Program-made: the position numbers and the translations under genes
Source of the DNA: Clostridia bacterium
GTDB taxonomy: Bacteria; Bacillota; Clostridia; Oscillospirales; Acutalibacteraceae
Direction: 5' to 3'
DNA length: 48,568 nucleotides
Assembly (NCBI GenBank): GCA_017472225.1
Contig: JAFUQS010000111.1
Location: forward strand, 1-48,568
Shown here: positions 1 through 12,398 of the stretch, piece after piece
Numbering within the stretch: position 1 is the stretch's first letter
How the letters are laid out: every line of letters begins with the position of its first letter
The notes under the pieces: model-generated
Seen by the model: only the letters and a program-made list of their open reading frames with translations
Database searches by the model: none
What the model was told of the DNA's origin: nothing

Positions 1-243
1 AAATCTGCCTTCGGCAGTCATAATAGCAACTGTTGATTTCTTGTGTTTCAACATATAATCCTTATGCAACATGTCTCGCCTGCCGGCTCGGTCGGTGCTT
101 CTGCTTTGCAGAGGTGTCCACCGGACACCCGCACCCCATTTTCCGAGGCGGATTTTTGCTTCTTCGGGTGGAAGCGTGAGGTTAGGTATCATATAGTCAC
201 CAACACGGCGATATTCAAGTTTTTTGTTCTGTTCCATAATCAT
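1..243 (-). CDS. tnpV: TnpV family protein, 3' part outside the window
   Basis: The N-terminus matches TnpV proteins of Tn4451-like mobilisable elements (LEYRRVGDYMIPNLTLP, then RLGKWG, then LHKDYMLKHKK). The role of TnpV is not established. The start ATG at 243 overlaps the stop of the upstream DUF6809 gene (ATGA), with AAGGAAAGGA as ribosome site; a second ATG lies at 237. Between the KWG and MLHKDY segments there is an in-frame 60-bp stretch (73-132, about 20 residues) that I do not expect in this family and that is rich in short palindromes. The gene runs off the left edge, so the C-terminus cannot be judged. Family call is fairly safe; function unknown. Confidence 0.65.
   Translation of the reverse strand, partial: MIMEQNKKLEYRRVGDYMIPNLTLPPEEAKIRLGKWGAGVRWTPLQSRSTDRAGRRDMLHKDYMLKHKKSTVAIMTAEGRF
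73..132. repeat. 60-bp palindrome-rich in-frame insert in tnpV
   Basis: Two adjacent perfect hairpins are visible: TCTGC-TTT-GCAGA (100-112) and GGTGTCC-ACC-GGACACC (113-129). They are preceded by a GC-rich segment with a repeated ACCGA on the minus strand. The segment is exactly 20 codons without a stop in the tnpV frame, so it lengthens the protein rather than breaking it. It looks like a small inserted palindromic element; its boundaries are inferred from where TnpV similarity stops and resumes. Confidence 0.45.
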
Positions 244-518
244 TTGTCCTTTCCTTTTTCAATAAAAGTGTCGTATGTAAATCTTGCACCGAGCCTGAAG
301 CCTACTGTGAAGCTGTTTGCATTGCAGAGGCTTGAAAACTTGATGTAAGTTGCAACATAGTCGGCAAAGAGCTCCTGTTCCTTGTCGGCGAGAATTGATG
401 TTAGATGTTCCTCTTTTCCGGAAAGCTCATTAAGGCTCTTTTTTACTTTTTTGGTGAGCTCTGTCGTGCATTCCTGTGGCTCGATATTGCCATAGTAAAA
501 ATCTTCAATGAAGCTCAC
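240..518 (-). CDS. DUF6809 family protein (92 aa)
   Basis: A small acidic, helical protein. The pattern FIEDFYYGNIEP near the N-terminus, a central EEHLTSILADKEQELFADY helix and VGFRLGARF near the C-terminus match DUF6809, a family seen in integrative elements and phages of Clostridia; its function is not known. I chose the GTG at 518 because the family starts just before this FIEDFYYGN block and a G-rich ribosome-site-like stretch (GGCGGTGG) precedes it; a longer reading frame upstream overlaps the 53-aa gene. It starts 4 bases after the stop of the 53-aa gene and overlaps tnpV by 4 bases, so the three are cotranscribed and probably translationally coupled. Confidence 0.65.
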   Translation of the reverse strand: MSFIEDFYYGNIEPQECTTELTKKVKKSLNELSGKEEHLTSILADKEQELFADYVATYIKFSSLCNANSFTVGFRLGARFTYDTFIEKGKDK

Positions 519-522
519 AGTA

Positions 523-684
523 TCACCACCGCCTTTCACTTTTATCAATGATTTTGATAAGCAGCTCATCAACATCCTCTGTGGGTAAATCCTTTTCCAA
601 GAGCTTATTGCGAAACTCATTCATACCATTGACAAGCAAATTGCACTCAAAATCCGTCAGCTTGATTTTTACCTTTTTAGTCAT
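523..684 (-). CDS. Small mobile-element protein (53 aa)
   Basis: A 53-residue open frame begins at ATG 684 behind a textbook ribosome site (AAGGAGG, 7 bases upstream) and ends at TGA 523-525. The product is Lys/Asp/Glu-rich (MTKKVKIKLTDFECNLLVNG at the start). Proteins of this type are common first genes in DUF6809-containing operons of gut integrative elements, but I know no function for them. Its size puts it below usual gene-finding limits; the ribosome site, tight spacing and operon position support it being real. Confidence 0.65.
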   Translation of the reverse strand: MTKKVKIKLTDFECNLLVNGMNEFRNKLLEKDLPTEDVDELLIKIIDKSERRW

Positions 685-897: not shown

Positions 898-994
898 ATG
901 TAATTTTTTTGTGTTTTACTCCCCTCAAAACCTCAGTAAAATGGGGATTATTGAGAGTTTTATTTATCGAGGCTCTTCATTGTCGGGATATGTA

Positions 995-2950
995 TTATAT
1001 CATTTTAAAATATTTAAGTGCATCCATAATGGCGTCTTCTTTTTCCTTAGTACACTGTGGTACCCGGCTTTTGCCTTCGCCCTTGTTATAACACTCTCTT
1101 TCAATAATGCCACACTTAGTTTTAACCTGAGATATATAAAGAGAAGATACCTTCAAATTGAACTTGTCAAAGACATAATCCTTGATTTCCTGATATGTTG
1201 CTTTGGTTTCAGCTGCAGTAACATCAATCTCTGAAAGGTCAAGTTTTATGTCGATATGTGTGTCCGGTCTGCGTTGGGACAAAAGAACAACCGTTTCGAC
1301 TGTTGTTTTTTCATTCGGAACAGATATTTCAGCGATATTTCCGTCATCCCCATCATAACAGATGGGAATGCGGAACTTTATCTTTTTTAGAATCTGTCCG
1401 TTTTCAGTCGGTTCCGGGTTAATCTCAATGCGTTCAATAATGCTGCTGAGAAACTCTTTCTTTTCCGCATCGGTGAACTTCGGATATATTATATCAAAGA
1501 ATAACAGAAATTGATATACCTTTTCCTGAGAAATTTTATCTTTACGTATATTTTCAAGCCTTTCATAAATAATGGATAACTCTTTTTCCGTTTCGTTTAT
1601 ATCACGATACAGGGAATCAAGCCTTAACTGCATATCATCATATTTCTTGTTGTAAAACTCATCAAACACATCAAGGCTGTCCATAGCTTTGCCGAGCTTT
1701 TCTTTTGCCATATTAAGCTGACGGAGTTTCTTGTTAAGGCCTGCTATCTCTGCTTCAATTTCCGCCGTATCAATCCTCGCATTTATCTTATCTTTTATCG
1801 CTTCCTCAAATTTCGGATTTTTTACTATTTTTGATACAAATTCTTCAACGGCTGAATTAACCTTTTCCTGATGGATTTGCTTTTTATAGGTGCATTTATG
1901 ACCGTCAAGCTCCAAACGATGCTTACAAGCATAATACCAATAATCACGGTAAAAAGTGCCATCCTTTTTTCTCTTTCTGCTTACACTGCCGTACATAGGC
2001 TGACCGCACTCGGGACAGCAAACGATACCCGATAGCAAGTGTTGATGCTCAAGACTGTATGTCTTTTCATTTTTTATGCCGGTTTTCTTCCTTTTTGCCT
2101 GTGCTAAAAGCCAGTCTTCTTCAGATATAATGGCATCGTGTACACCGTCATAAACAGGATATTCATCTTGCTTTACGATATGAAATTCATTTCTTGCACC
2201 ATTAACTTTTTCTGTTTTTCTTCTGCCGTATGCTAACTTACCACAGTAAACGGGATTATCTAAAACAAGCTTAACAAAGTGTGCAGAGAATGTACTGAGT
2301 GTACCGTTCTGCCTTTGCTTTTTCTCATACCCATGTTGGTTAAGATATTTGGCAATACCATTTGCGCCCATATTGGTGTGAATGAATTTATCGTAAATAA
2401 CTCTGATTGCCTCGGCTTCATCTTCAGCAATTTTAAGTTCACCTTTATCAAGATAATATCCGTAAGGGGCAAAACCGCCGTTCCATTTACCTTCTCGTGC
2501 CTTTTGTTTTCTGCCTTCCATAGTCTGTACAAGAATGTTCTCACGCTCAATTTCAGCAACAGCGGATAAAACAGAAATCATCAGCTTACCGCTATCCTTT
2601 GAACTGTCTATACCATCTTCAACACAGATAAGATTTGCACCGTAATCCTGCATAATCTGCAAAGACGAAAGTACATCAGCAGCATTTCTGCCAAAACGGG
2701 ACAACTTGAAAACAAGCACATAATCCACACCGTCTTTGCCGCTTTCTATATCACTGAGCATTCTTTGAAATTCAGGTCTGCCGCCTATATTCTTGCCAGA
2801 GCAACCTTCGTCACTGTATATACCGGCAACAATCATATTCTGATATTCAGCATATCGTAACAGCTTTTCTTTCTGTGCATCAAGACTGAATCCGTCAACC
2901 TGCATTGATGTTGAAACACGGATATAGATGTAACAAATTAATCTTCTCAT
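995..2950 (-). CDS. Large serine recombinase with swapped rlmD-type C-terminal tail
   Basis: A TnpX/Tn4451-class site-specific recombinase that would excise and integrate the 9.75-kb unit. Domains in order: N-terminal resolvase fold (residues about 5-150) with the catalytic serine in RVSTSMQVDGFSLDAQ and FKLSRFGRN; recombinase domain (about 155-300); zinc ribbon CCPECG...C...C (about 315-365); long coiled coil (about 390-510); then a C-terminal tail beginning VETVVLLSQRRPDTH that is nearly identical to the tail of RlmD at 10743. The tail is encoded across the attachment repeat, so the last 95 or so codons came from the integration site, not the element. The start ATG 2950 is preceded by AAGGAG. 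The frame is intact, so the protein could be active. RlmD is a recognised integration site for such elements; the tail exchange is read directly from the sequence. Confidence 0.9.
   Translation of the reverse strand: MRRLICYIYIRVSTSMQVDGFSLDAQKEKLLRYAEYQNMIVAGIYSDEGCSGKNIGGRPEFQRMLSDIESGKDGVDYVLVFKLSRFGRNAADVLSSLQIMQDYGANLICVEDGIDSSKDSGKLMISVLSAVAEIERENILVQTMEGRKQKAREGKWNGGFAPYGYYLDKGELKIAEDEAEAIRVIYDKFIHTNMGANGIAKYLNQHGYEKKQRQNGTLSTFSAHFVKLVLDNPVYCGKLAYGRRKTEKVNGARNEFHIVKQDEYPVYDGVHDAIISEEDWLLAQAKRKKTGIKNEKTYSLEHQHLLSGIVCCPECGQPMYGSVSRKRKKDGTFYRDYWYYACKHRLELDGHKCTYKKQIHQEKVNSAVEEFVSKIVKNPKFEEAIKDKINARIDTAEIEAEIAGLNKKLRQLNMAKEKLGKAMDSLDVFDEFYNKKYDDMQLRLDSLYRDINETEKELSIIYERLENIRKDKISQEKVYQFLLFFDIIYPKFTDAEKKEFLSSIIERIEINPEPTENGQILKKIKFRIPICYDGDDGNIAEISVPNEKTTVETVVLLSQRRPDTHIDIKLDLSEIDVTAAETKATYQEIKDYVFDKFNLKVSSLYISQVKTKCGIIERECYNKGEGKSRVPQCTKEKEDAIMDALKYFKMI
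1210..1300. repeat. Attachment-site direct repeat, left copy (in recombinase 3' end)
   Basis: Matches 10961-11051 at 90 of 91 positions; the last 78 bases (1223-1300) are identical. Homology stops abruptly at base 1301, where the recombinase-specific sequence begins, and continues with lower identity to the left through the shared protein tail. The sharp edge places the crossover within or at the right edge of the repeat, in the codons for VETVVLL. Confidence 0.8.
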
Positions 2951-3272: not shown

Positions 3273-3887
3273 TCACCTCGCATCCCTATCTCTCTGTTTA
3301 ATCAGATACTTTCTGTAATACTCGCAAGCCTTCAGTACAAACTCCTCAAGCTCTTTCTTATCTGCCCTTGGTGAAAACTGCTGTAATTGTTCAAGAGGAA
3401 ACTTTATCGTTTCTCTTTGGTTTGCTTTATCCTCTTGCATAATGGTTTCAATCTGTTCTGTGTTCAATTCGTTGCTCTGACTCAGTTTTTTGAAGCGGAC
3501 TGCCTGCGAAAATGAAGGCGTGCGTTCTTCTTCCTCTATCGTGCCGAGAAGGGCATACTGTTGCTCTTCTGTGAGATAGGAAAGTTCAACAGCAGGGGTA
3601 AGCGCAATTTTACCTTCGTCAACAAGTTCAAGGAGTTCAGGGATGAGGTTTGTCAGTCGGATATATCGTTGAATTTGAGCTCGACTTTCGCCTGTCTGCT
3701 CACCAATTATTTCATCTGCTCTTAACTTCGTCTCAAGTTGAGACGAAGTTAAATCTGTACGTTTGCCCTGTGATTTCAATGCTTCATACTTGAGCTTATA
3801 CGCAAACGCCTTCTCGCTCGGTAAAATATGTTCTCTGTGCAGATTGCTGTCAACAAGCATAATTGCCGCTTCATCTCTGCTTATCAT
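3273..3887 (-). CDS. ParB-family protein, N-terminally truncated
   Basis: The product begins inside a ParB-type domain: RDEAAIMLVDSNLHREHILPSEKAFAYK is the usual end of the ParB N-terminal domain, followed by the KorB/HTH region (TGESRAQIQRYIRLTNLIPELLELVDEGKIALTPAVELSYLTEEQ). A complete protein would have roughly 100 more residues upstream, including the GERR/CTP-binding motif, which is absent. The first ATG (3887) has GAGG immediately adjacent, too close to be a good ribosome site. The upstream open frame continues only into unrelated sequence with a hairpin (CAAGAG...CTCTTG, about 3929-3954). It is probably a decayed partition or regulatory gene, although the HTH part could still be expressed. 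Confidence 0.6.
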   Translation of the reverse strand: MISRDEAAIMLVDSNLHREHILPSEKAFAYKLKYEALKSQGKRTDLTSSQLETKLRADEIIGEQTGESRAQIQRYIRLTNLIPELLELVDEGKIALTPAVELSYLTEEQQYALLGTIEEEERTPSFSQAVRFKKLSQSNELNTEQIETIMQEDKANQRETIKFPLEQLQQFSPRADKKELEEFVLKACEYYRKYLIKQRDRDAR

Positions 3888-4012: not shown

Positions 4013-4504
4013 TTAACGATTTTTATTTTTTTTGGTGATATTCTTTTTATTTGAAAGATTTTCAATTGCTTGAGCACACAATTTAGTTAAAGGTATGCCT
4101 ATAGCTTCTTTATAATTAAAACCTAATAGCTGCATGGTTTTTAATGTATCTACATTTACAATATCTTTCAATGCTTTTAAAGATTCTATCCCATCAGCTT
4201 CAATAAATTGACTTAAAATGTCAATAACAAGTTCAATAGTATTATGAAGATGCTCAATGTCCTCATCACTAATTTCAATTTTTTCTAATTCATGTCTATA
4301 AGCCTGAGCTATACGTAGGATTTCTTCTCTTTCTTCAATTAATTCACTTATTATCTCGTTATAATAGTTTTTTATTTTCTCTGCATCGCGTTCTGCTTTT
4401 ATTGTTTTAACTTTTGTGCTGACCGCCGTTGCAGTTCCTTTAACCGCCAGGGCTGTCAATTCAGTTCCCATCTGTGCCAATGTAGCTTGTAATGTTGCAT
4501 CCAT
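4013..4504 (-). CDS. Hypothetical protein of the ATPase operon (163 aa)
   Basis: No known domain recognised. I chose ATG 4504 because of the strong site TTGGAGG before it; the frame also contains an upstream methionine at 4555. The N-terminal 35 residues are small and hydrophobic to amphipathic (DATLQATLAQMGTELTALAVKG); residues about 35-105 form a charged helix or coiled coil rich in Lys and Glu; the C-terminus is very basic (KKNITKKNKNR). It lies about 55 bases downstream of the 475-aa gene and is probably cotranscribed with it and the ATPase. The composition would fit a membrane-active or oligomerising effector, but nothing seen proves this. Confidence 0.6.
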   Translation of the reverse strand: MDATLQATLAQMGTELTALAVKGTATAVSTKVKTIKAERDAEKIKNYYNEIISELIEEREEILRIAQAYRHELEKIEISDEDIEHLHNTIELVIDILSQFIEADGIESLKALKDIVNVDTLKTMQLLGFNYKEAIGIPLTKLCAQAIENLSNKKNITKKNKNR

Positions 4505-4558
4505 TATTTTGACCTCCAAAACACATTCAAACAATTTGATTTTATTTAACAACACCTA

Positions 4559-5986
4559 TTATACAATTTTTTTATAAATACTTATAACTTTTTTTATATC
4601 TGAAAACATATTATCTGCGCTTCGATGTTCACTTGGACTATTAGCTAAGGTAAAACTATACTTAGGTTCATGAAAATACATTTTGTCGTGACTTCCGGCT
4701 TCTAATGTGAATCCACATTTTTCAAATTTGCTGCGTCTTAATTGCAAAGATTTATCCTTTAAAGCATTTTCAATATTGTTCAATATTTCCTTGCCTTTAC
4801 CCAAAAGCTCATTTTCTTTCAAAAACGTATCTAATATATCCTTTTGTCGAGTGTTACTATTCAATTTGGGCTGTAATTGAGAAAGCAATGTTATTACCAA
4901 GTCGTTTAATTCCCCATGGTAAAACTCTGTTATTCCAGTAGTTTTAAAAGATATCGTATCATTAATTTCTTTTTTTGCTTTGAAAGATTCTATGATTGAG
5001 TTTTTACAATCTAATTGATACTGAAGATCTCTGATTTTCTCTTCTTTCTTTTTTACATCCTCATCAAATGCAGCTAAAAGAGCATCACACTCTTGTTTTG
5101 TATCTGTTGCACTTTTACTTTCTTCTTCAAAAATTTTTCTATGGTAAAGAACTTGCAAATTACTCCAAGAATAATCATTTGTATTATCATGATTCAACAC
5201 AGACTGTTGGAGTGTAGCACGAACAAAGGACGCCATTTGTTTGCTATCTAATTTACCATTTTCAAAGAAGTCCTCAATTGAAATAATTTCTTTGTACGTT
5301 GACTTAGAAAAATAAATACCAATATAGCCATTATAAGGATTATTGGAATTAGTCAATTCTTTCAATTTCTTTGAAAAGGTTTTATTCGGCTCAACTAATA
5401 CATGTGCTATACCTGATAAACTGCTTGCCAATTTATTCTCATCAACAGAATATAAATTGGGGTTAAACCCATCAACACTTAAATATACTACTGGCAAATT
5501 TGTTTTTACTGTTCCACACATTATTTGCGCACATATATCCATATCTGCATCTTTCAAATAAATCGGTTTATCAACAATAGGGAAAACTCCCTTATCATAA
5601 CAAAGATCGGCTTCAATTAAATTTTTAATTATATGAGGTTTATGTATTTTGGGCAAACTTCTCGAATAATTTTTCGTATGGCAAGAAAGCGTTATAGATA
5701 TATTTTTTTCATCGTTTATCTCCGAATAGATGCAATCTGTAATCCAACTATTCTTATCTTCTCTATTTGCAAATCTTAACGCTAAAATCGTGTTAGAAGA
5801 TATATTAGAATTCAAAATTGATATAGATGTATTTTCAAAATCTTGTTTGAAAAACTCTTTTCCATCACAATCAATTTCTTTAATTTTGTAATGTGGGCTT
5901 CCCTTAAGCCAAGTCTTTAAAACAGCTAAAACTTTTTCTTTATCCGTACTATCTTTTAGTCTGATTTTTGTTGTAAATAAATCCAT
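4559..5986 (-). CDS. Hypothetical protein of the ATPase operon (475 aa, coiled coil)
   Basis: Not recognised as a named family. The N-terminal half is mixed alpha/beta with conserved-looking patches (LPVVYLSVDGFNPNLYSVD, HVLVEPNKTFSKKLKEL, NPYNGYIGIYFSKS). A coiled coil follows at about residues 285-340 (EECDALLAAFDEDVKKKEEKIRDLQYQL region), then a basic helical C-terminal domain with LQLRRSKFEKCGFTLE. ATG 5986 has AAAGGAGC eight bases upstream. It sits between the 99-aa and 163-aa genes in one AT-rich minus-strand operon headed by the ATPase. Large unknown proteins beside an OLD/SMC-like ATPase are common in antiphage systems; function here is inference only. Confidence 0.7.
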   Translation of the reverse strand: MDLFTTKIRLKDSTDKEKVLAVLKTWLKGSPHYKIKEIDCDGKEFFKQDFENTSISILNSNISSNTILALRFANREDKNSWITDCIYSEINDEKNISITLSCHTKNYSRSLPKIHKPHIIKNLIEADLCYDKGVFPIVDKPIYLKDADMDICAQIMCGTVKTNLPVVYLSVDGFNPNLYSVDENKLASSLSGIAHVLVEPNKTFSKKLKELTNSNNPYNGYIGIYFSKSTYKEIISIEDFFENGKLDSKQMASFVRATLQQSVLNHDNTNDYSWSNLQVLYHRKIFEEESKSATDTKQECDALLAAFDEDVKKKEEKIRDLQYQLDCKNSIIESFKAKKEINDTISFKTTGITEFYHGELNDLVITLLSQLQPKLNSNTRQKDILDTFLKENELLGKGKEILNNIENALKDKSLQLRRSKFEKCGFTLEAGSHDKMYFHEPKYSFTLANSPSEHRSADNMFSDIKKVISIYKKIV

Positions 5987-6039
5987 TTTTACGCTCCTTT
6001 ATTAATTAATATTACTTGTTCATTTACTGCTCTTATATG

Positions 6040-6339
6040 TTAAAGGCTATCTATTAAACTTTTTCTAACTTCAGCAAGTTCTCGATTTAAATCTTCAACA
6101 TATTCTTTGCAAACATCTATGTAAAGATCTTTAGAGTATCCCTCGGTTTTTTTAAAACTTGACAATACATCACTGTCAAGCATCATTTCTAGTAATTTTG
6201 AAAAAACGATTTTAAAATCCGATTGACTCTCTGAACTGTTTAAATTTACGGTTAACTTCTCTTCTTCTGAAAAATGAAACATTAATATATCCGTTTCTCC
6301 AGAAACGGTCAATTCAACAACAATTATCATTCGATCCAT
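6040..6339 (-). CDS. Small hypothetical protein of the ATPase operon (99 aa)
   Basis: No recognised domain. The start at ATG 6339 has GGAGAG upstream and lies 26 bases inside the 3' end of the ATPase gene, so translation is probably coupled to it. The first half is predicted beta (MIIVVELTVSGETDILMFHF), the second half acidic helices ending EVRKSLIDSL. Its position directly after the ATPase suggests a partner subunit. What it does cannot be told from sequence. Confidence 0.6.
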   Translation of the reverse strand: MDRMIIVVELTVSGETDILMFHFSEEEKLTVNLNSSESQSDFKIVFSKLLEMMLDSDVLSSFKKTEGYSKDLYIDVCKEYVEDLNRELAEVRKSLIDSL

Positions 6340-8149
6340 AAATAACTCTCCTATCATTAAAAGCTTCTTTTCCGCCTTCAAGTGTATGTAAACTTTCGGC
6401 AGTCCAACTTAATTTGTCATTTTCATCTTTTATGTTAACAAGCTGATCGTTAAAGGGATTACCTATGTATGTACCATAGACCCCATTTTGATATGTTCTA
6501 AATATTGACATATAAGGCAATGTTCTAACAGCTATATTTGCATTATGCGTTGCGATTATAACAGCTTTGTGACGTTTAGCTAACTCAGATATTTGTGGCC
6601 TTATAATTGAATCCACATATGAATTTCCCATACCTAATTCGGGTTCGTCTAAAAAATATGCATCAGCTGGTTTTTTTAACCTTTTTTGCAGCAATAATAT
6701 GCCTTTTTCACCATTAGAAGGTACATACTCTGTATTGTCGGCAGTAACAATTTGTTTTGAGATGCCGAGAAAATAAGCCGTTGAATTTATACTGTGGTCT
6801 ATACACATTCCCTTCAAGCTGTCAATATGCGCTGATAATGAATCCGATGAAATCATTGATGTCGCTTGTAACATTTTTGATTTAATATCATTAAGAACTC
6901 TGATTCCCGACACAAATTCAGCTGTCTTTGACTCACTAGAAAGCATTCTAAAAAGTCTTCTAATATAAATTTCACCCTTATCTTCAAGTTCACCCAAATA
7001 TTCAAGCTTAAAACTATTTTTATCGGTAATGTTCTCAAGTATTTTTTTTAGAGCTTTTATCAACATAATTCTGTTTTGAGCATACTCAATAAATCCAGTT
7101 GATGATGGCTTGGATACAGAATTTGAATTTTTGTCAGCAATGCCTTTTATGGCGTTTATACTATAGTTAGTAAGTTTAGTAGAATTCGCTTCCAATATAT
7201 CAAGAATGAATTTACTTTTAATTTTGCTATATAAAACATCAAAACCATTTATTATATTAATTTTTTCTTCTTCTGAAATATAGTTATCTAAAACTATTCT
7301 ATCTAAAGACTCTTTAATATACTTTATTGTTTTATAATCGTCGGCATGCTGAGTATAACTTTCAGGACTAGGTACTATCAAAGTAGCAGCCTCCGTTATC
7401 TTCATCCTTTTTTTATTTGAATTATGATTTCTTGTTTTAAACCAACTTATATAATTTGAAAATAAAGTAGGGTTTGTATCTTTCCAATCGAAAATATATT
7501 CAAACTCTTCTTTGCAATCAGTTGAACCAACAATACTAATATTTCTTTCCATGTCAGTAGTTTTAAGTAGCGAATTAAATTCGTCGTCTTTTTGAGCACC
7601 AGCATATACAGAACATTCAATACCTTGTGATACCATACTTTGGTGGATAGATTCTAAAATCTTGCTTTTTCCAGTTCCCTTTTGACCAAAAATTATATTA
7701 ACATCGTCGTATATTTTTAAATCAATTGTTACAGAAGAATGTGGTTTTGCTTTTACATTATATGATTTTTTCTGATTCAATAGAGTTTCTACCACCGCTT
7801 CATCTCTTTTTGCTAGTAAGCAGAATTGAGAAAAACTTGATACTGGTAGTTTCAACTCTGAAAAATTGCATTCTTCATATTTATTCCAATCTTTCACATC
7901 GCTTCCGATAATTACATTGTAATCATGGTTAGCAAATACACCTAATGACCTGTTATTCTGTGTTTCATCGAAAACTCTCGTTGGTTCTCCTACAAGGCTT
8001 ATCAACTTACACAAATCCTCTTCAGATATTCCTGGAGTTTTTTTATAGTGAGGAATATAAATTACATCACAATCATTTAATTTATCAAAAACAGTTTCAA
8101 TGTTTTTAGTACATACTTCAATATTATCTCCTTCAAATAGCTCTTGCAC
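6314..8149 (-). CDS. ABC/OLD-type AAA ATPase, 5'-truncated PHP-ATPase
   Basis: The ATPase motifs are complete: Walker A GQKGTGKS (residues 155-162 from the GTG at 8149), a signature-like SNGEKG (about 478), Walker B YFLDEPELGMG (about 498-508) and H-loop ATHNAN (about 533). A long helical insert separates A and B as in OLD/SMC-like enzymes. The first 150 residues resemble the C-terminal part of a PHP-type metal hydrolase (VIIGSDVKDWNKY, VIYIPHYKK). The coding frame continues upstream of 8149 for 55 more family-like codons (LWPGVEIDIKG, YHLIVVANPDN) to about 8314-8320, with no ATG and then a TAA at 8321. The HxH metal site expected at the start of a PHP domain is gone. GTG 8149 has no good ribosome site. 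So this is probably a truncated, perhaps silent, gene; the original was likely a PHP-AAA defence-type protein (inference). Confidence 0.7.
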   Translation of the reverse strand: MQELFEGDNIEVCTKNIETVFDKLNDCDVIYIPHYKKTPGISEEDLCKLISLVGEPTRVFDETQNNRSLGVFANHDYNVIIGSDVKDWNKYEECNFSELKLPVSSFSQFCLLAKRDEAVVETLLNQKKSYNVKAKPHSSVTIDLKIYDDVNIIFGQKGTGKSKILESIHQSMVSQGIECSVYAGAQKDDEFNSLLKTTDMERNISIVGSTDCKEEFEYIFDWKDTNPTLFSNYISWFKTRNHNSNKKRMKITEAATLIVPSPESYTQHADDYKTIKYIKESLDRIVLDNYISEEEKINIINGFDVLYSKIKSKFILDILEANSTKLTNYSINAIKGIADKNSNSVSKPSSTGFIEYAQNRIMLIKALKKILENITDKNSFKLEYLGELEDKGEIYIRRLFRMLSSESKTAEFVSGIRVLNDIKSKMLQATSMISSDSLSAHIDSLKGMCIDHSINSTAYFLGISKQIVTADNTEYVPSNGEKGILLLQKRLKKPADAYFLDEPELGMGNSYVDSIIRPQISELAKRHKAVIIATHNANIAVRTLPYMSIFRTYQNGVYGTYIGNPFNDQLVNIKDENDKLSWTAESLHTLEGGKEAFNDRRVIYGSNDNCC

Positions 8150-8319
8150 CCTTGCATTGAAGGTAGATGTATTGTCAGGATTTGCAACTACAATAAGGTG
8201 ATATTTATTACCAACTGAACCTTTAATATCAATTTCAACACCAGGCCATAATTGGCAATCATCTTTTACTGCCTCTTGTAACTCATTGAATTGAATTAAA
8301 TCGAATGCATTAATAAAAA

Positions 8320-8340
8320 ATTACATAAAGACAACTTAAT
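8320..8340. other. Junction between truncated ATPase and tnpV remnant
   Basis: ATPase-family coding sequence stops near 8314-8320 and the tnpV stop codon lies at 8340, leaving about 20 AT-rich bases between two genes that are each damaged. This marks a deletion or insertion boundary inside the element. Confidence 0.5.
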
Positions 8341-8725
8341 CAAATATATATCAACTCTTCACAAACTATCTCTCTCGCCCTTGCTTCAATATCCCCCATT
8401 CTCTGAATCCACTCCATCGGGTCTTGTTCTTTCAGTTGTTCCGTCACACCTTCGGCTTCTTTCATCTGCTCAACAAGAGCATCAAACATATCACGAGTTT
8501 GCTCGTCTACATCGGCAAGGCAAGAATGCAGTTTACCACTCATAATCAGTGAATCATATACATATTTTTTATTTTTCTTAAGATAATGCTCATGCATTCT
8601 CCCCATCTACCTATTGTGCGGTCATCTTTGGGCTCGGGTAATTTTAGGTCGGGGAAATAATAGTCGCCGTGAAGGGTGTAACTGATACCTGTTTGTTCGT
8701 TGGTGGTGTGTTTGGGTAATGACAT
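8340..8725 (-). pseudogene. tnpV: tnpV with a single-base frameshift
   Basis: Two overlapping frames together give one full-length TnpV. The first (from ATG 8725, ribosome site AAGGAGG) reads SLPKHTTNEQTGISYTLHGD through DDRTIGRWG. The second continues GRMHEHYLKKNKKY to ARAREIVCEELIYI. The frame changes at about 8600-8608, in a TGGGGAGAATG context where one base is missing from the purine run. A whole TnpV is about 125-130 residues, matching the joined product. A sequencing or assembly error in the G-run would give the same picture. The gene supports assignment of the element to the Tn4451-like group. Confidence 0.75.
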
Positions 8726-8801: not shown

Positions 8802-9740
8802 TTATTCAAAAAGACTTAACTGATTAATTTTATAAGACTTCATTTCTCTCACTTTTATCACATCATCTTCTCCAATCTCACCAAAAAGCAAGGGTGAATT
8901 TGGATTATGTAACAGAAAATTGTTAGAAACTATTTTTGTATTAAAATTTGCATAGCAATACAAACAACCATTTTTACAAGTGTTATATGCACCAATATCA
9001 ATACTGGAAATACAACCACATTCTAATCGTTGGTTTTTGTCTTTTTCAATATTAAGTTTATATTTTCCGATACGTTCAAATCGATTTTTATCTATACAGC
9101 TTGCATGAGATATTCCAAATCGTTGAAGATTTATGTCTTCTGCACATGTATCAATGTAAATACCATGCTTTTTGGCAATTTCACTCAAAGCACCAATCAA
9201 TTCTATTTTTTGTGAAGCTGTTGGTATTGTTATCCCTAATGGTGAAATGTTTCTTTTTGTTTTTTCATAGAAATCAACAAAACTTACAGTGCATTTTTCA
9301 GTATAGTTTGCAAGTTTATCAACTAAAGACTCAAAATACTTTATATGGTATTGCATGTTGTATTTTTCGTTAAATATAATTGGATCATAGCGCCAAACAA
9401 CTTTATCTTTACCAATCTCAGTCGATAGTCTTTGAAAAGCCGGGATAATTACGTCTTTTTTAGGTGGAATATTTGGTTCTACATCGTTTCCGTAAGAATT
9501 AAGAGTAAACTGAAAATAATATGTGTATTTTTCAAGTTCTGATAATCTGTCTAACATTGGTGCAGGGTTTTTTGTCCAAAAAACTATACCGTCAACAACA
9601 TCGGGAGAAAGTGAAATTTTTCCTACTTGATGTATATTCATTGGATTTCGAACATAAACATACTCATCTTTTATTCGATTAAAAAACCAATCTGAATAAT
9701 AAGAAGGTATATCAGTTCTTCTGCTTGCGCTTATAATCAT
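8802..9740 (-). CDS. DUF1848 family protein with radical-SAM-like Cys motif
   Basis: The product (312 aa) has the DUF1848 signature MIISASRRTDIPSYYSDWF at the start, then VDGIVFWTKNPAPM, and VVWRYDPIIF. Near the C-terminus it has GCISSIDIGAYNTCKNGCLYCYAN, which contains CX3CX2C, the iron-sulfur motif of radical SAM enzymes placed at the wrong end of the protein, as is usual in this family. Its reaction is unknown to me. ATG 9740 has GTAGGAG eight bases upstream and starts 11 bases after the stop of the methyltransferase-like gene; a longer frame from 9788 would overlap that gene and lacks family similarity. The pair is probably cotranscribed. Confidence 0.8.
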   Translation of the reverse strand: MIISASRRTDIPSYYSDWFFNRIKDEYVYVRNPMNIHQVGKISLSPDVVDGIVFWTKNPAPMLDRLSELEKYTYYFQFTLNSYGNDVEPNIPPKKDVIIPAFQRLSTEIGKDKVVWRYDPIIFNEKYNMQYHIKYFESLVDKLANYTEKCTVSFVDFYEKTKRNISPLGITIPTASQKIELIGALSEIAKKHGIYIDTCAEDINLQRFGISHASCIDKNRFERIGKYKLNIEKDKNQRLECGCISSIDIGAYNTCKNGCLYCYANFNTKIVSNNFLLHNPNSPLLFGEIGEDDVIKVREMKSYKINQLSLFE

Positions 9741-9751
9741 AGTTATTTCTC

Positions 9752-10645
9752 CTACTCGACTTCTATGAGCATTTGTGCACTTGAACATTGCCTCCAGGGC
9801 TCATAATAGCTAAACTCTCTTGGGATTTCAAACAAAATATCAGTTGATCTATGTCGCATGCCATAACGCTGATAATCGCTTTTAATATTATAGTCAAAAT
9901 AAAACATTGAATAAGTTCCATGTAAACCAGCCTTTGATAATTCCTTACATAAATCTTCAAAATGATCTCTACCTCTGTTGCAACTGTTTACATCGTTTAT
10001 AAGTATTACTAAAGGCTCATTTGATTTTTTATGAACAATTATGTTAGAGATAAGTTTAACATAAAAATCTTTAATTTTGTTTATCTGATTTGTATTATAA
10101 AGGTGTGATATAAGGTATTGGATAACAATAACATTTGCTTTTTTTAAAGTTCTAGAGTTTACATAATCAATCGCATCTTCATACAAAAATTTAGCCCTCA
10201 TATCAAGTGCTGATTCTTCTGCGTAAGTTTTTATTTCTTCATGAATAGGCAGCCATAAATCATTCTTATCTATTCCTAAATATTGTATTCTTTTGTTTGA
10301 ATCAGTTTCTTTAACATACTCTTCAAATGCCATTAGGTCAGGACAACCACCACAGCCAATAGACAGTATGTGATAATCATCAATATCCTTCAGTGCTGGA
10401 CTCTTTCTTAATAGATACAACATTTCCGATGCATATTTAAAAGAATAATCGCACACATAGAAATTTAAAAGATTTGTGCAATCATAATCTTTTTTACCGT
10501 TTGGATATTTTGTAGGAAAGTGAATCTCATCAAGACATGTTTTGCATCCACCGGAGCACCCATCCTTATGATGACATCTCTTACAAGTATTTTCCGAACG
10601 GTTGTAGTTTTCATTGCAAAAATCTGTCATATGATATATAAGCAT
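9752..10645 (-). CDS. Cys-rich methyltransferase-like protein paired with DUF1848
   Basis: The N-terminal 40 residues hold a dense cysteine cluster (CKRCHHKDGCSGGCKTC), likely a zinc or iron-sulfur site. From about residue 90 the sequence fits a class I SAM-dependent methyltransferase: strand-loop HILSIGCGGCPDLMAF in place of the usual GxGxG loop, acidic residue after the second strand (IQYLGIDKNDLW), DAIDYV, then VIVIQYLISHLY. ATG 10645 has TAAGGAGG seven bases upstream. It is the first gene transcribed inside the element, just downstream of rlmD, and pairs tightly with the DUF1848 gene. Substrate unknown; a rRNA, tRNA or DNA modification role is possible but unproven. Confidence 0.65.
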   Translation of the reverse strand: MLIYHMTDFCNENYNRSENTCKRCHHKDGCSGGCKTCLDEIHFPTKYPNGKKDYDCTNLLNFYVCDYSFKYASEMLYLLRKSPALKDIDDYHILSIGCGGCPDLMAFEEYVKETDSNKRIQYLGIDKNDLWLPIHEEIKTYAEESALDMRAKFLYEDAIDYVNSRTLKKANVIVIQYLISHLYNTNQINKIKDFYVKLISNIIVHKKSNEPLVILINDVNSCNRGRDHFEDLCKELSKAGLHGTYSMFYFDYNIKSDYQRYGMRHRSTDILFEIPREFSYYEPWRQCSSAQMLIEVE

Positions 10646-10742: not shown

Positions 10743-12398
10743 CTACTGTACCATCCTAAAATGCCTTAACGCATCCATGATAGCATCTTCTTTTTCCTTC
10801 GGGCATTTAGGCACTCTGTGTCCTTCTTTGCCTTTGTTATAATTTTCACGTTCTATTATCCCACACTTGGCTTTCACCTGTGAAATATACAGCGTAGATA
10901 CCTTTAACCCAAACTTATCGAGCACATAATCCTTGATTTCCTGATATGTCGCCTTTGTCTCAGCTGCAGTAATATCAATCTCTGAAAGGTCAAGTTTTAT
11001 GTCGATATGTGTGTCCGGTCTGCGTTGGGACAAAAGAACAACCGTTTCGACATGAGTAGTTCTCGGGAACATATCAACTGCTGTTGCTTCTTTTGTTTCA
11101 TAACCGAGCTCATTGAACACTGCAAGGTCCCTTGCAAGGGTTGCAGGGTCGCAGGAAACATATACCACTGTTTCCGGTGACATGCTTGATACGGTTTCAA
11201 GAACCTCCCTTGAGCAGCCCTTTCTCGGCGGGTCAAGAACAACCACATCCGGTCTTATGCCCTCATCATAAAGTGTTTTTGCTGCACCTTTCGCATCGTC
11301 ACAAATGAATCTTGCGTTTTCAATGTTGTTCAGTTTTGCGTTTTCCTTTGCATTTTCAATCGCCTGCGGAATAATTTCAACACCAATAAGACTCTTCGCC
11401 TTGTCTGCCATTGTAAGACCGATTGTACCTGCTCCGCAGTAAAGGTCAAGAATCACCTCGTTGCCCGTAAGGCCTGCATATTCCTTTGCTTTGCCGTATA
11501 AAAGCTCTGTGCCCTCAGGATTCACCTGATAAAAGGAAAGGGGCGATATTCTGAATTTAAGACCGCACAATTCATCCTCAATGAAGTCGCTGCCCCAGAT
11601 TGTGATACATTCATCACCGAGAATAACATTGGTGTCCTTTTTATTTATGTTAAGAACGATTGACCTGATGTTCTTTCCCGAAGACAAGAGAAGCTCAATG
11701 AGTCTTTCCTTTCTCGGTATACTGTCACCGTTAATTACAAGGCAGACCATCATTTCACCTGTTTTGTGAGCCTGTCTGAGATAAATATGCCTGAGAAGTC
11801 CCTTGCCCGTTTTTTCGTCATATATAGTTACGGGATTTTCAGCAATGTATCTTCTTATAAGAGGGATAACGGTGTGAAAATCCTCCTTCTGAAGCAGGCA
11901 TCTGTCACTGTCAGTGATGCGATGGGTACGCTTTGAATAAAAACCGATTTGTATATTGCCGTCTTCACTCATACCAACGGGAATCTGAGCCTTGTTTCTG
12001 TAATTTTTCGGCTCTTTTATGCTGAGTATCTCCTTCACTTCAATTCCGAGTCCGCCTATGCGCTGAAGTGCATCGGTTACGGTCTGTTTTTTGATGTTCA
12101 GCTCCTCTTCATAGCTTATGTGTCTGTAAGCACAGCCGCCACAACGGGTATCAATTTCACAGTCGGATTCTATTCTGCATTTTGCTTTTTTTACTATCTT
12201 TTTGATTTTGCCGACAGCGTAATTCTTTTTCACCTTGATAATGTGTACAAGAAGCTCATCTCCGGGTGCGGCACCCTCAACAAAAACCGCCATATCCTTA
12301 AAACGACCCAAACCACTCCCCTGTGATGTGAGAGTGGTTATGGTAAACTTTATTTCGTCATTCTTTTTGATTATTTCATTATTTTTCATTTTTGTCAC
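10743..12398 (-). CDS. rlmD: 23S rRNA (uracil-C5)-methyltransferase RlmD with element-derived C-terminal tail
   Basis: RlmD/RumA methylates a 23S rRNA uracil with SAM. Visible parts: N-terminal TRAM domain (about 10-70), iron-sulfur cysteines (CRIES-DCEIDTRCGGC), SAM loop LDLYCGAGTIGL, DPPRKGC, and the catalytic cysteine in VVYVSCDPATLARD. The usual protein ends soon after HVETVVLLS; here about 95 more residues follow (RRPDTHIDIKLDLSEID onward), homologous to the recombinase tail at 995. The extension starts exactly at the attachment repeat, so it was supplied by the integrated element; catalysis should be unaffected. The start is GTG 12398, overlapping the stop of the upstream LCP gene (GTGA), or ATG 12389; neither has a strong ribosome site. 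It is the last gene of a regulator-kinase-LCP-rlmD run. Confidence 0.93.
   Translation of the reverse strand: MTKMKNNEIIKKNDEIKFTITTLTSQGSGLGRFKDMAVFVEGAAPGDELLVHIIKVKKNYAVGKIKKIVKKAKCRIESDCEIDTRCGGCAYRHISYEEELNIKKQTVTDALQRIGGLGIEVKEILSIKEPKNYRNKAQIPVGMSEDGNIQIGFYSKRTHRITDSDRCLLQKEDFHTVIPLIRRYIAENPVTIYDEKTGKGLLRHIYLRQAHKTGEMMVCLVINGDSIPRKERLIELLLSSGKNIRSIVLNINKKDTNVILGDECITIWGSDFIEDELCGLKFRISPLSFYQVNPEGTELLYGKAKEYAGLTGNEVILDLYCGAGTIGLTMADKAKSLIGVEIIPQAIENAKENAKLNNIENARFICDDAKGAAKTLYDEGIRPDVVVLDPPRKGCSREVLETVSSMSPETVVYVSCDPATLARDLAVFNELGYETKEATAVDMFPRTTHVETVVLLSQRRPDTHIDIKLDLSEIDITAAETKATYQEIKDYVLDKFGLKVSTLYISQVKAKCGIIERENYNKGKEGHRVPKCPKEKEDAIMDALRHFRMVQ
10961..11051. repeat. Attachment-site direct repeat, right copy (in rlmD)
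   Basis: The partner of 1210-1300: one mismatch (T10973 against C1222), identical from 10974 to 11051. It codes for VETVVLLSQRRPDTHIDIKL and some following residues of RlmD. To the right the sequence is ordinary rlmD; to the left lies element DNA. Confidence 0.8.

Follow-up and report, generated by a model that had tools for sequence, protein, structure and literature searches.

The question raised by positions 4013-8320 of contig JAFUQS010000111.1 (Clostridia bacterium, assembly GCA_017472225.1) is whether four adjacent genes, one of them coding for a broken ATPase, form a single defence system, as an original prediction made from the letters of the DNA had proposed. The stretch analyzed, hereafter the window, has a length of 48,568 nucleotides (nt) and is an entire contig of a 2.33-Mb, 111-contig draft genome. 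The best explanation, to which we assign a probability of roughly 60%, is that the locus holds a decayed copy of a two-gene module, made up of the ATPase and a small acidic partner, next to cargo unrelated to it, all on a serine-recombinase island in the gene rlmD, and that intact copies of the module act as proposed below. Judged from sequence, the pair is real, little described and probably defensive.

The four-gene locus

The locus comprises the following genes, with protein lengths in amino acids (aa) and isoelectric point as pI:

6314..8320, minus strand: truncated PHP-ABC ATPase; 668 codons, homology from about 8311, HxH and TNH motifs lost
6040..6339, minus strand: acidic 99-aa partner (P0005), the other gene of the core module; pI 4.42
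4559..5986, minus strand: 475-aa HEC-07-like protein (P0006) with a coiled coil and a HicA-like C-terminus; read as separate cargo
4013..4504, minus strand: 163-aa helical protein (P0007), ATG at 4504; read as separate cargo

The four open frames are real and not chance, because of their length and their conservation across phyla. Strand, sizes, AT-richness and ATPase motifs were as first described: the GC content is 0.29-0.31 in the four genes versus 0.404 window-wide, and the ATPase carries Walker A (GQKGTGKS), signature (PSNGE), Walker B (FLDEPE) and H-switch (ATH) motifs. The 99-aa gene overlaps the ATPase gene by 26 nt, and gaps of 53 and 54 nt separate the 99-aa, 475-aa and 163-aa genes. 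Scans for promoters and terminators yielded signals at shuffle level. The 475-aa protein had been presented simply as a coiled-coil protein; the coiled coil is present, but further domains flank it and the C-terminus is HicA-like (6.4e-5).

A two-gene module of ATPase and acidic partner

The ATPase and the 99-aa protein are a two-gene module. When 84,980 species genomes were scanned by pattern with an ATPase alignment of five rows, at least 77 loci were obtained, and on viral contigs the five-row query found two ATPase loci and a two-row query none. Individual loci are cited by L numbers. Among the 79 loci L026-L104, eight lack the ATPase C-terminus and one lacks room, testable loci being those with the C-terminus and 300 bases beyond it on the contig; the partner gene lies directly after the ATPase gene in 70 of 70 testable loci; in one of these, L084, the ATPase is split between frames and the partner ends oddly. 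Furthermore, the two genes overlap in 70 of 71 pairs (by 14 nt in 48 pairs, by 11 nt in 15 and by other lengths in 7), with L052 as the sole measured pair lacking an overlap; these lengths rest on start codons picked by rule. The partner is acidic (median pI 4.59, range 4.05-5.21, n = 59), and the intact ATPases of L010, L022, L023, L058 and L083 are 707-718 aa long. An all-against-all BLAST of 1,216 predicted genes in 88 loci revealed no conserved third gene, the largest cluster beyond the ATPase and its partner covering 11 of the 88.

According to record titles and tree labels, many of them from metagenome-assembled genomes (MAGs), the module is spread over about a dozen phyla: Bacteroidota, Bacillota, Pseudomonadota, Thermodesulfobacteriota, Planctomycetota, Verrucomicrobiota, Actinomycetota, Nitrospinota, Omnitrophota and Atribacteria, together with an Ignavibacterium MAG and a Myxococcales MAG. 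The loci are not all independent, as L096 is the contig of L024, L068 and L069 come from one MAG, and the partners of L033 and L103 agree over the residues compared. Occurrence is rare and patchy, the ATPase being found in 4 of 398 genomes of a phylum sample, the window's own included. Naming the partner after LmuC (6/59 partners, best 7.1e-5) or REase_II (16/59, best 3.7e-4) was considered and dropped, the matches being too weak.

PHP identity and loss of the ATPase 5' end

Decay is limited to the 5' end of the ATPase gene, in agreement with the original prediction; the other frames are open. Based on a 27-row alignment, the missing N-terminal piece amounts to about 44 residues, and the cut falls inside the TNHN motif, between TNH and the final N, at about 8311. 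The nearest relative of the window ATPase is L083, an intact protein from a Clostridia MAG that is 59% identical, and the window ATPase begins at about the position of residue 45 in that protein. Over the whole window frame, a plasmid protein of Photobacterium damselae is 36% identical, and its first 45 residues include D-I-H-V-H-T and T-N-H-N. Both D.H.HT (HxH) and TNH are present in 76 of 77 relatives with the N-terminus on the contig, namely those of the 79 loci whose frame starts more than 30 bases inside it; the single exception, L074, starts 51 bases from the contig end.

PHP domains with HxH are metal-dependent phosphoesterases, in which HxH- and TNH-type residues bind metal. Because the relatives keep HxH and TNH in the piece that the window protein has lost, the PHP identity proposed for the remaining N-terminus is right, and the window copy is without the PHP metal-site residues: taken as a PHP metallo-enzyme, it has neither HxH nor TNH. 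Going by its residues, it should be dead as a PHP enzyme. Beside the break lies the remnant of a transposon gene:

8340..8725, minus strand: TnpV relic (TnpV 2.2e-31, profile positions 27-111)

The TnpV match covers 8340-8606, the TnpV start lies in another frame (by eye), and the relic has a GC content of 0.417 versus 0.30-0.31 on both sides. There is little chance that the truncated ATPase is alive without its PHP motifs, serving together with its partner as an ATPase regulator. Its 668 codons are open, all ABC motifs are in place and the partner is intact; recent truncation, however, explains the open frame equally well, the break adjoins the transposon relic, the first ATG, GTG or TTG past the break is a GTG 57 codons in, and nearly all relatives keep the two motifs that this copy has lost.

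Broken ATPases were also seen on Staphylococcus and Enterococcus plasmids (L012:3200-5563, L013:5261-6727 and L011:5594-7963), the two Staphylococcus ones adjoining IS6-family transposases. Decay of the ATPase alone recurs, with the frame of the small partner staying open.

Comparison with known systems

In order to place the module, its proteins were compared with described ATPase families. OLD nucleases have a C-terminal TOPRIM domain; Pfam scans of the window protein and two intact relatives gave no TOPRIM, and the earlier OLD-type label was rejected. The window ATPase is an ABC/SMC-like ATPase with a PHP N-terminus. With PARIS AriA, its best PDB sequence match (1.4e-9), and Septu PtuA, a weak one (2.5e-3), it shares the ABC ATPase core; unlike the module ATPase, AriA and PtuA have no PHP domain, and their effectors are separate nucleases. 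The TrlF family AAA-like ATPase (TrlF_fam_ATP, NF045780) resembles two intact relatives (4.8e-17 and 3.6e-20, best over the PHP N-terminus) and matches the window protein at its extreme C-terminus. The model is 944 positions long and its cut-off is 350 bits; the window protein scores 17.8 bits and the two relatives 62 and 72.3 bits, all below that cut-off.

The PADLOC candidate PDC-M49 has the same layout, with a PHP-ABC ATPase of 675-684 aa carrying D.H.HT and TNH and an overlapping acidic gene of 94-102 aa, as taken from three plasmid loci, one of Enterococcus and two of Staphylococcus, to which plasmid matches of a relative had led. In contrast to these three true members, which match PDC-M49A at 1.7e-210 to 0, the module ATPases are only distantly related, matching at about 1e-30 (two intact relatives at 2.9e-31 and 1.5e-32); coverage was broad at scores far below those of true members (L022, 3.4e-22 over 7-718; L083, 5.8e-30 over 2-704). 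The truncated window ATPase gave no PDC-M49A match at an expectation (E) value of 1 or less. PDC-M49B models matched 0 of 59 partners at E ≤ 0.1, and within 12 module-bearing genomes they gave only E values of 0.03-0.72, in three genomes and at positions not compared with the module. Alignment of the partner with PDC-M49B by hhalign yielded a probability of 0.7%, against a B profile of only three rows. Membership in PDC-M49 was rejected, the two-gene layout being shared but the B subunit not found. Further genome searches with PDC-M49B gave a best E value of 0.13 in one of two genomes and nothing in 299 genomes of the phylum or 274 of another class, sets from which absence is not shown because the model matched no control.

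A 31-row tree with a midpoint root was built from 27 selected module rows, three PDC-M49A rows and one Ppl row. The window ATPase fell within a clade of eight rows, most of them clostridial (100/99), itself part of a family of 27 rows (100/97) to which the PDC-M49A and Ppl rows do not belong; the depth of this split is unsure because of the midpoint root and long branches. The module forms a clade of its own, with a partner not detectably related to PDC-M49B.

Ppl offers a further comparison. It is reported to be a PHP 3'-5' exonuclease on single-stranded DNA that is held by nucleoside triphosphate (NTP) and triggered by nucleotide depletion plus 3'-OH ends (PMC12904381). Like the module ATPase, Ppl has a PHP domain fused to an ABC/SMC-like NTPase, and the window protein has a local match to it. 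Unlike the module with its small partner, Ppl is reported as a single-gene system (PMC12904381), with a PADLOC model of 894 positions. Matches to this model were local only (window 1.3e-5, L083 3.1e-4), compared to 3.7e-37 for a Serratia homologue, and the module, with its partner in 70 of 70 testable loci, is not a single-gene system. Ppl serves as the best mechanistic model but carries no family assignment. WonAB, in turn, resembles the module as a two-gene set of an ABC ATPase and a smaller partner, both of which are reported to be needed for protection (PMC12137116). There the nuclease, of the PD-(D/E)xK type, is WonB, whereas in the module the presumed nuclease motif lies in the ATPase and the partner is the 99-aa acidic protein.

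A literature search covering neither bioRxiv nor most subscription journals showed no description of the pair among the matches listed, and the name PDC-M49 was not found in it. Calling the set an undescribed system was too strong, as PADLOC lists PDC-M49 with the same layout and a PHP/NTPase relative, Ppl, has been described.

The 475-aa and 163-aa proteins as probable separate cargo

The 475-aa and 163-aa genes look like separate cargo. It is very improbable that all four genes are one composite system, as originally predicted, with the HicA-like 475-aa and helical 163-aa proteins as accessory or effector parts. The genes share a strand, short gaps (53 and 54 nt) and a low GC content (0.29-0.31), but none of the other 87 module loci (L010-L013 and L022-L104, many of them short contigs) matched profiles of the two families at E ≤ 0.01, and both families were found without the ATPase. 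Furthermore, the neighboring DUF1848 gene and the gene at 9752-10645 are equally low in GC; composition therefore marks cargo and not a system. The check suggested at the outset, whether the small proteins occur without the ATPase, had a split outcome: the 99-aa protein paired with it in all testable loci, and the other two turned up in unrelated contexts.

HEC-07 of PADLOC gave partial matches to the 475-aa protein (4.5e-9 over 41-204 and 5.3e-6 over 63-322). This family was detected on 8 plasmid records, and three inspected plasmid homologues had no annotated PHP-ATPase beside them in a gene table that is incomplete. Among 200 genomes of the taxonomic family it occurred in one, the window's own; it was absent from the viral contigs searched, and neither it nor the 163-aa family had a match in phage records. 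On a Citrobacter plasmid (L016:5001-8644), a shortened 475-aa homologue has an insertion sequence and a KPC carbapenemase gene nearby.

The 163-aa family was found on 14 plasmid records, 10 of whose neighborhoods were read. In four of the ten, the gene follows a large helicase-type gene, one such being split by an insertion sequence; one scanned helicase-type neighbor is a Type ISP restriction enzyme. Single neighborhoods place it after a cytosine methyltransferase, before type I restriction-modification (R-M) genes, or after an AAA protein, and in the remaining three the match lies inside a longer protein of 263-283 aa, one beside an opposite-strand AIPR-family gene and two beside replication, insertion-sequence or unnamed genes. 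On five viral contigs the family stands beside HNH or terminase-type genes (by eye, without a profile scan); among these loci L138 is the contig of L105, and the L137 copy is split over two frames. The family was present in 5 of 299 phylum genomes, the window's own included and two being weak partial matches, and a wider survey of 20 genomes gave one partial match, in the centre genome itself. The 163-aa family roams (window 4013-4504; L105, L112-L116, L128-L132, L134-L138), and here it follows the HEC-07-like gene.

Genomic surroundings and proposed role

Intact relatives with full PHP motifs exist, some near R-M and other defence genes, as had been anticipated. Across the 88 loci, the neighbor clusters were integrase-like (11 loci), ABC-transporter-like (7), cytosine methyltransferase (6), helix-turn-helix (HTH; 6), HsdR (5), methylase/R-M (5), helicase (4), HsdM (4) and HsdS (3), with two outer-membrane-type clusters of five loci each; labels were given by eye from one member each, and the Hsd counts include the duplicated contig L024/L096. 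A BREX-type helicase, HerA and integrases are likewise among the neighbors. At 1e-15, PADLOC matched 175 families in 147 near proteins versus 84 families in 138 proteins more than 6 kb off. The near set is a random 147 of 239 proteins within length and residue limits (69 loci, up to two genes per side within 2.5 kb) and the far set all 138 of 138 (57 loci), six entries (duplicates, fragments and the window itself) having been removed beforehand; the counts are of families, several being possible per protein, with identities from the first 25 of each list. The surroundings are island-like, and support for defence is moderate. In two loci the module is flanked by a 255-aa protein (L022:5605-6372; no PADLOC match) and a 354-aa protein (L010:4058-5119).

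An unlikely alternative is that the module serves DNA repair or mobile-element maintenance. PHP domains and Rad50-like ATPases also serve repair, integrase-like genes were seen in 11 of the 88 loci, and plasmids carry several copies. The rare and patchy distribution (4 of 398 phylum genomes, its own included), the R-M genes among the neighbors, and the fact that the related AriA and Ppl are defence proteins argue against that role.

Starting from the pairing, the gene overlap, the PHP and ABC motifs, the clade structure and the loss of HxH and TNH in the window, a most likely mechanism for intact copies of the module may be proposed. ABC ATPases dimerise on ATP, and the ABC domains of the module would do the same. 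They may sense a DNA state linked to infection, such as ends, repair intermediates or nucleotide depletion, and sensing would free the N-terminal metal-dependent PHP domain, a putative nuclease, for the degradation of nucleic acid. Translation of the small acidic partner is probably coupled to that of the ATPase, which the partner would bind so as to gate or position the nuclease.

Several observations weigh against this account. A false assembly join at about 8311 may have occurred in the 111-contig draft. PDB matches beyond AriA were mostly generic ABC ATPases, with Rad50 and PtuA at about 2e-3, and the partner had a best PDB E value of 0.028 and no recognised fold, because of which its role is a guess. 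Recurrent neighbors include non-defence genes, and the defence enrichment is modest and roughly measured because genes beyond 6 kb also match PADLOC. The ATPase had no match in 50,697 phage records, and no phage assay for the module clade was found.

We would sooner bet against than for a bolder proposal, in which the module is a distinct, undescribed two-component immune system of about a dozen phyla. Its ATP-gated PHP nuclease would be held and licensed by the acidic subunit of about 100 aa, non-homologous small subunits would have been recruited separately by the module clade and PDC-M49, and the 163-aa family would be a roaming helical accessory that joins restriction/defence operons and phage packaging loci. 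For the preferred explanation, the gain is that one real module has been separated from unrelated cargo, leaving a pair that can be tested, whose linkage is strict, whose genes overlap and in which two motif sets are conserved. If active, the pair would add to the PHP/NTPase defence class of Ppl a two-component form that has a small regulatory subunit, and would bear on PDC-M49, a candidate for which no published test was found.

The serine-recombinase island with rlmD as its likely target

The expectation that the genes are mobile-element cargo was borne out, as they lie within a serine-recombinase island with the following further features:

993..1292, minus strand: island end 1, a second rlmD 3' tail, fused in frame to the recombinase gene end
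995..2950, minus strand: large serine recombinase, Ccr-like (Resolvase 1.4e-38, Recombinase 2.2e-19, Zn ribbon 1.4e-11)
3273..3887, minus strand: ParB-type HTH protein (HTH_ParB 5e-7)
8802..9788, minus strand: DUF1848 protein, AT-rich cargo (PF08902 4.7e-109)
9752..10645, minus strand: 297-aa protein overlapping the DUF1848 gene; no Pfam match at E ≤ 0.01
10744..11043, minus strand: island end 2, the tail ending rlmD; direct repeat
10743..12398, minus strand: rlmD/rumA-type methyltransferase, likely insertion target (PF05958 1.2e-18)

The recombinase matched the CcrB model at 1.8e-59, below the model cut-off. The direct repeat (993-1292 and 10744-11043) is 300 nt long with 80% identity and a spacing of 9751, and brackets 9.75 kb. 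It corresponds to a 94-aa coding tail (83% protein identity), one copy of which ends rlmD and the other the recombinase gene. An rlmD match was obtained in 30 of 30 same-genus genomes, where some rlmD genes have the tail and others lack it, and where the tail can also sit on a second paralogue. Among nine same-genus stretches, six carry a single tail that directly follows the rlmD core, and three are tailless; no relative of the recombinase core was detected in the nine at E ≤ 1e-4, with 2-15 kb of flank each. A single tail looks like an empty site, and the window looks like an insertion between two tails. Tailless rlmD was considered as the empty site and dropped, tailed rlmD without a recombinase having also been found, on two paralogues.

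The four genes, the DUF1848 gene and the 297-aa gene are the AT-rich cargo of this island, an example from a Bacillota genome of how such cargo travels and decays in a serine-recombinase island at rlmD. The DUF1848 and 297-aa genes (8802-10645) are as low in GC as the other cargo, and the ATPase pair of L025 has a DUF1848 relative (30% identity) in its vicinity. Just outside the island, window positions 1-620 hold a DUF6809 gene (240-620, 7.1e-19) and another TnpV-like piece, recognized by eye, a combination that suggests stacked mobile elements.

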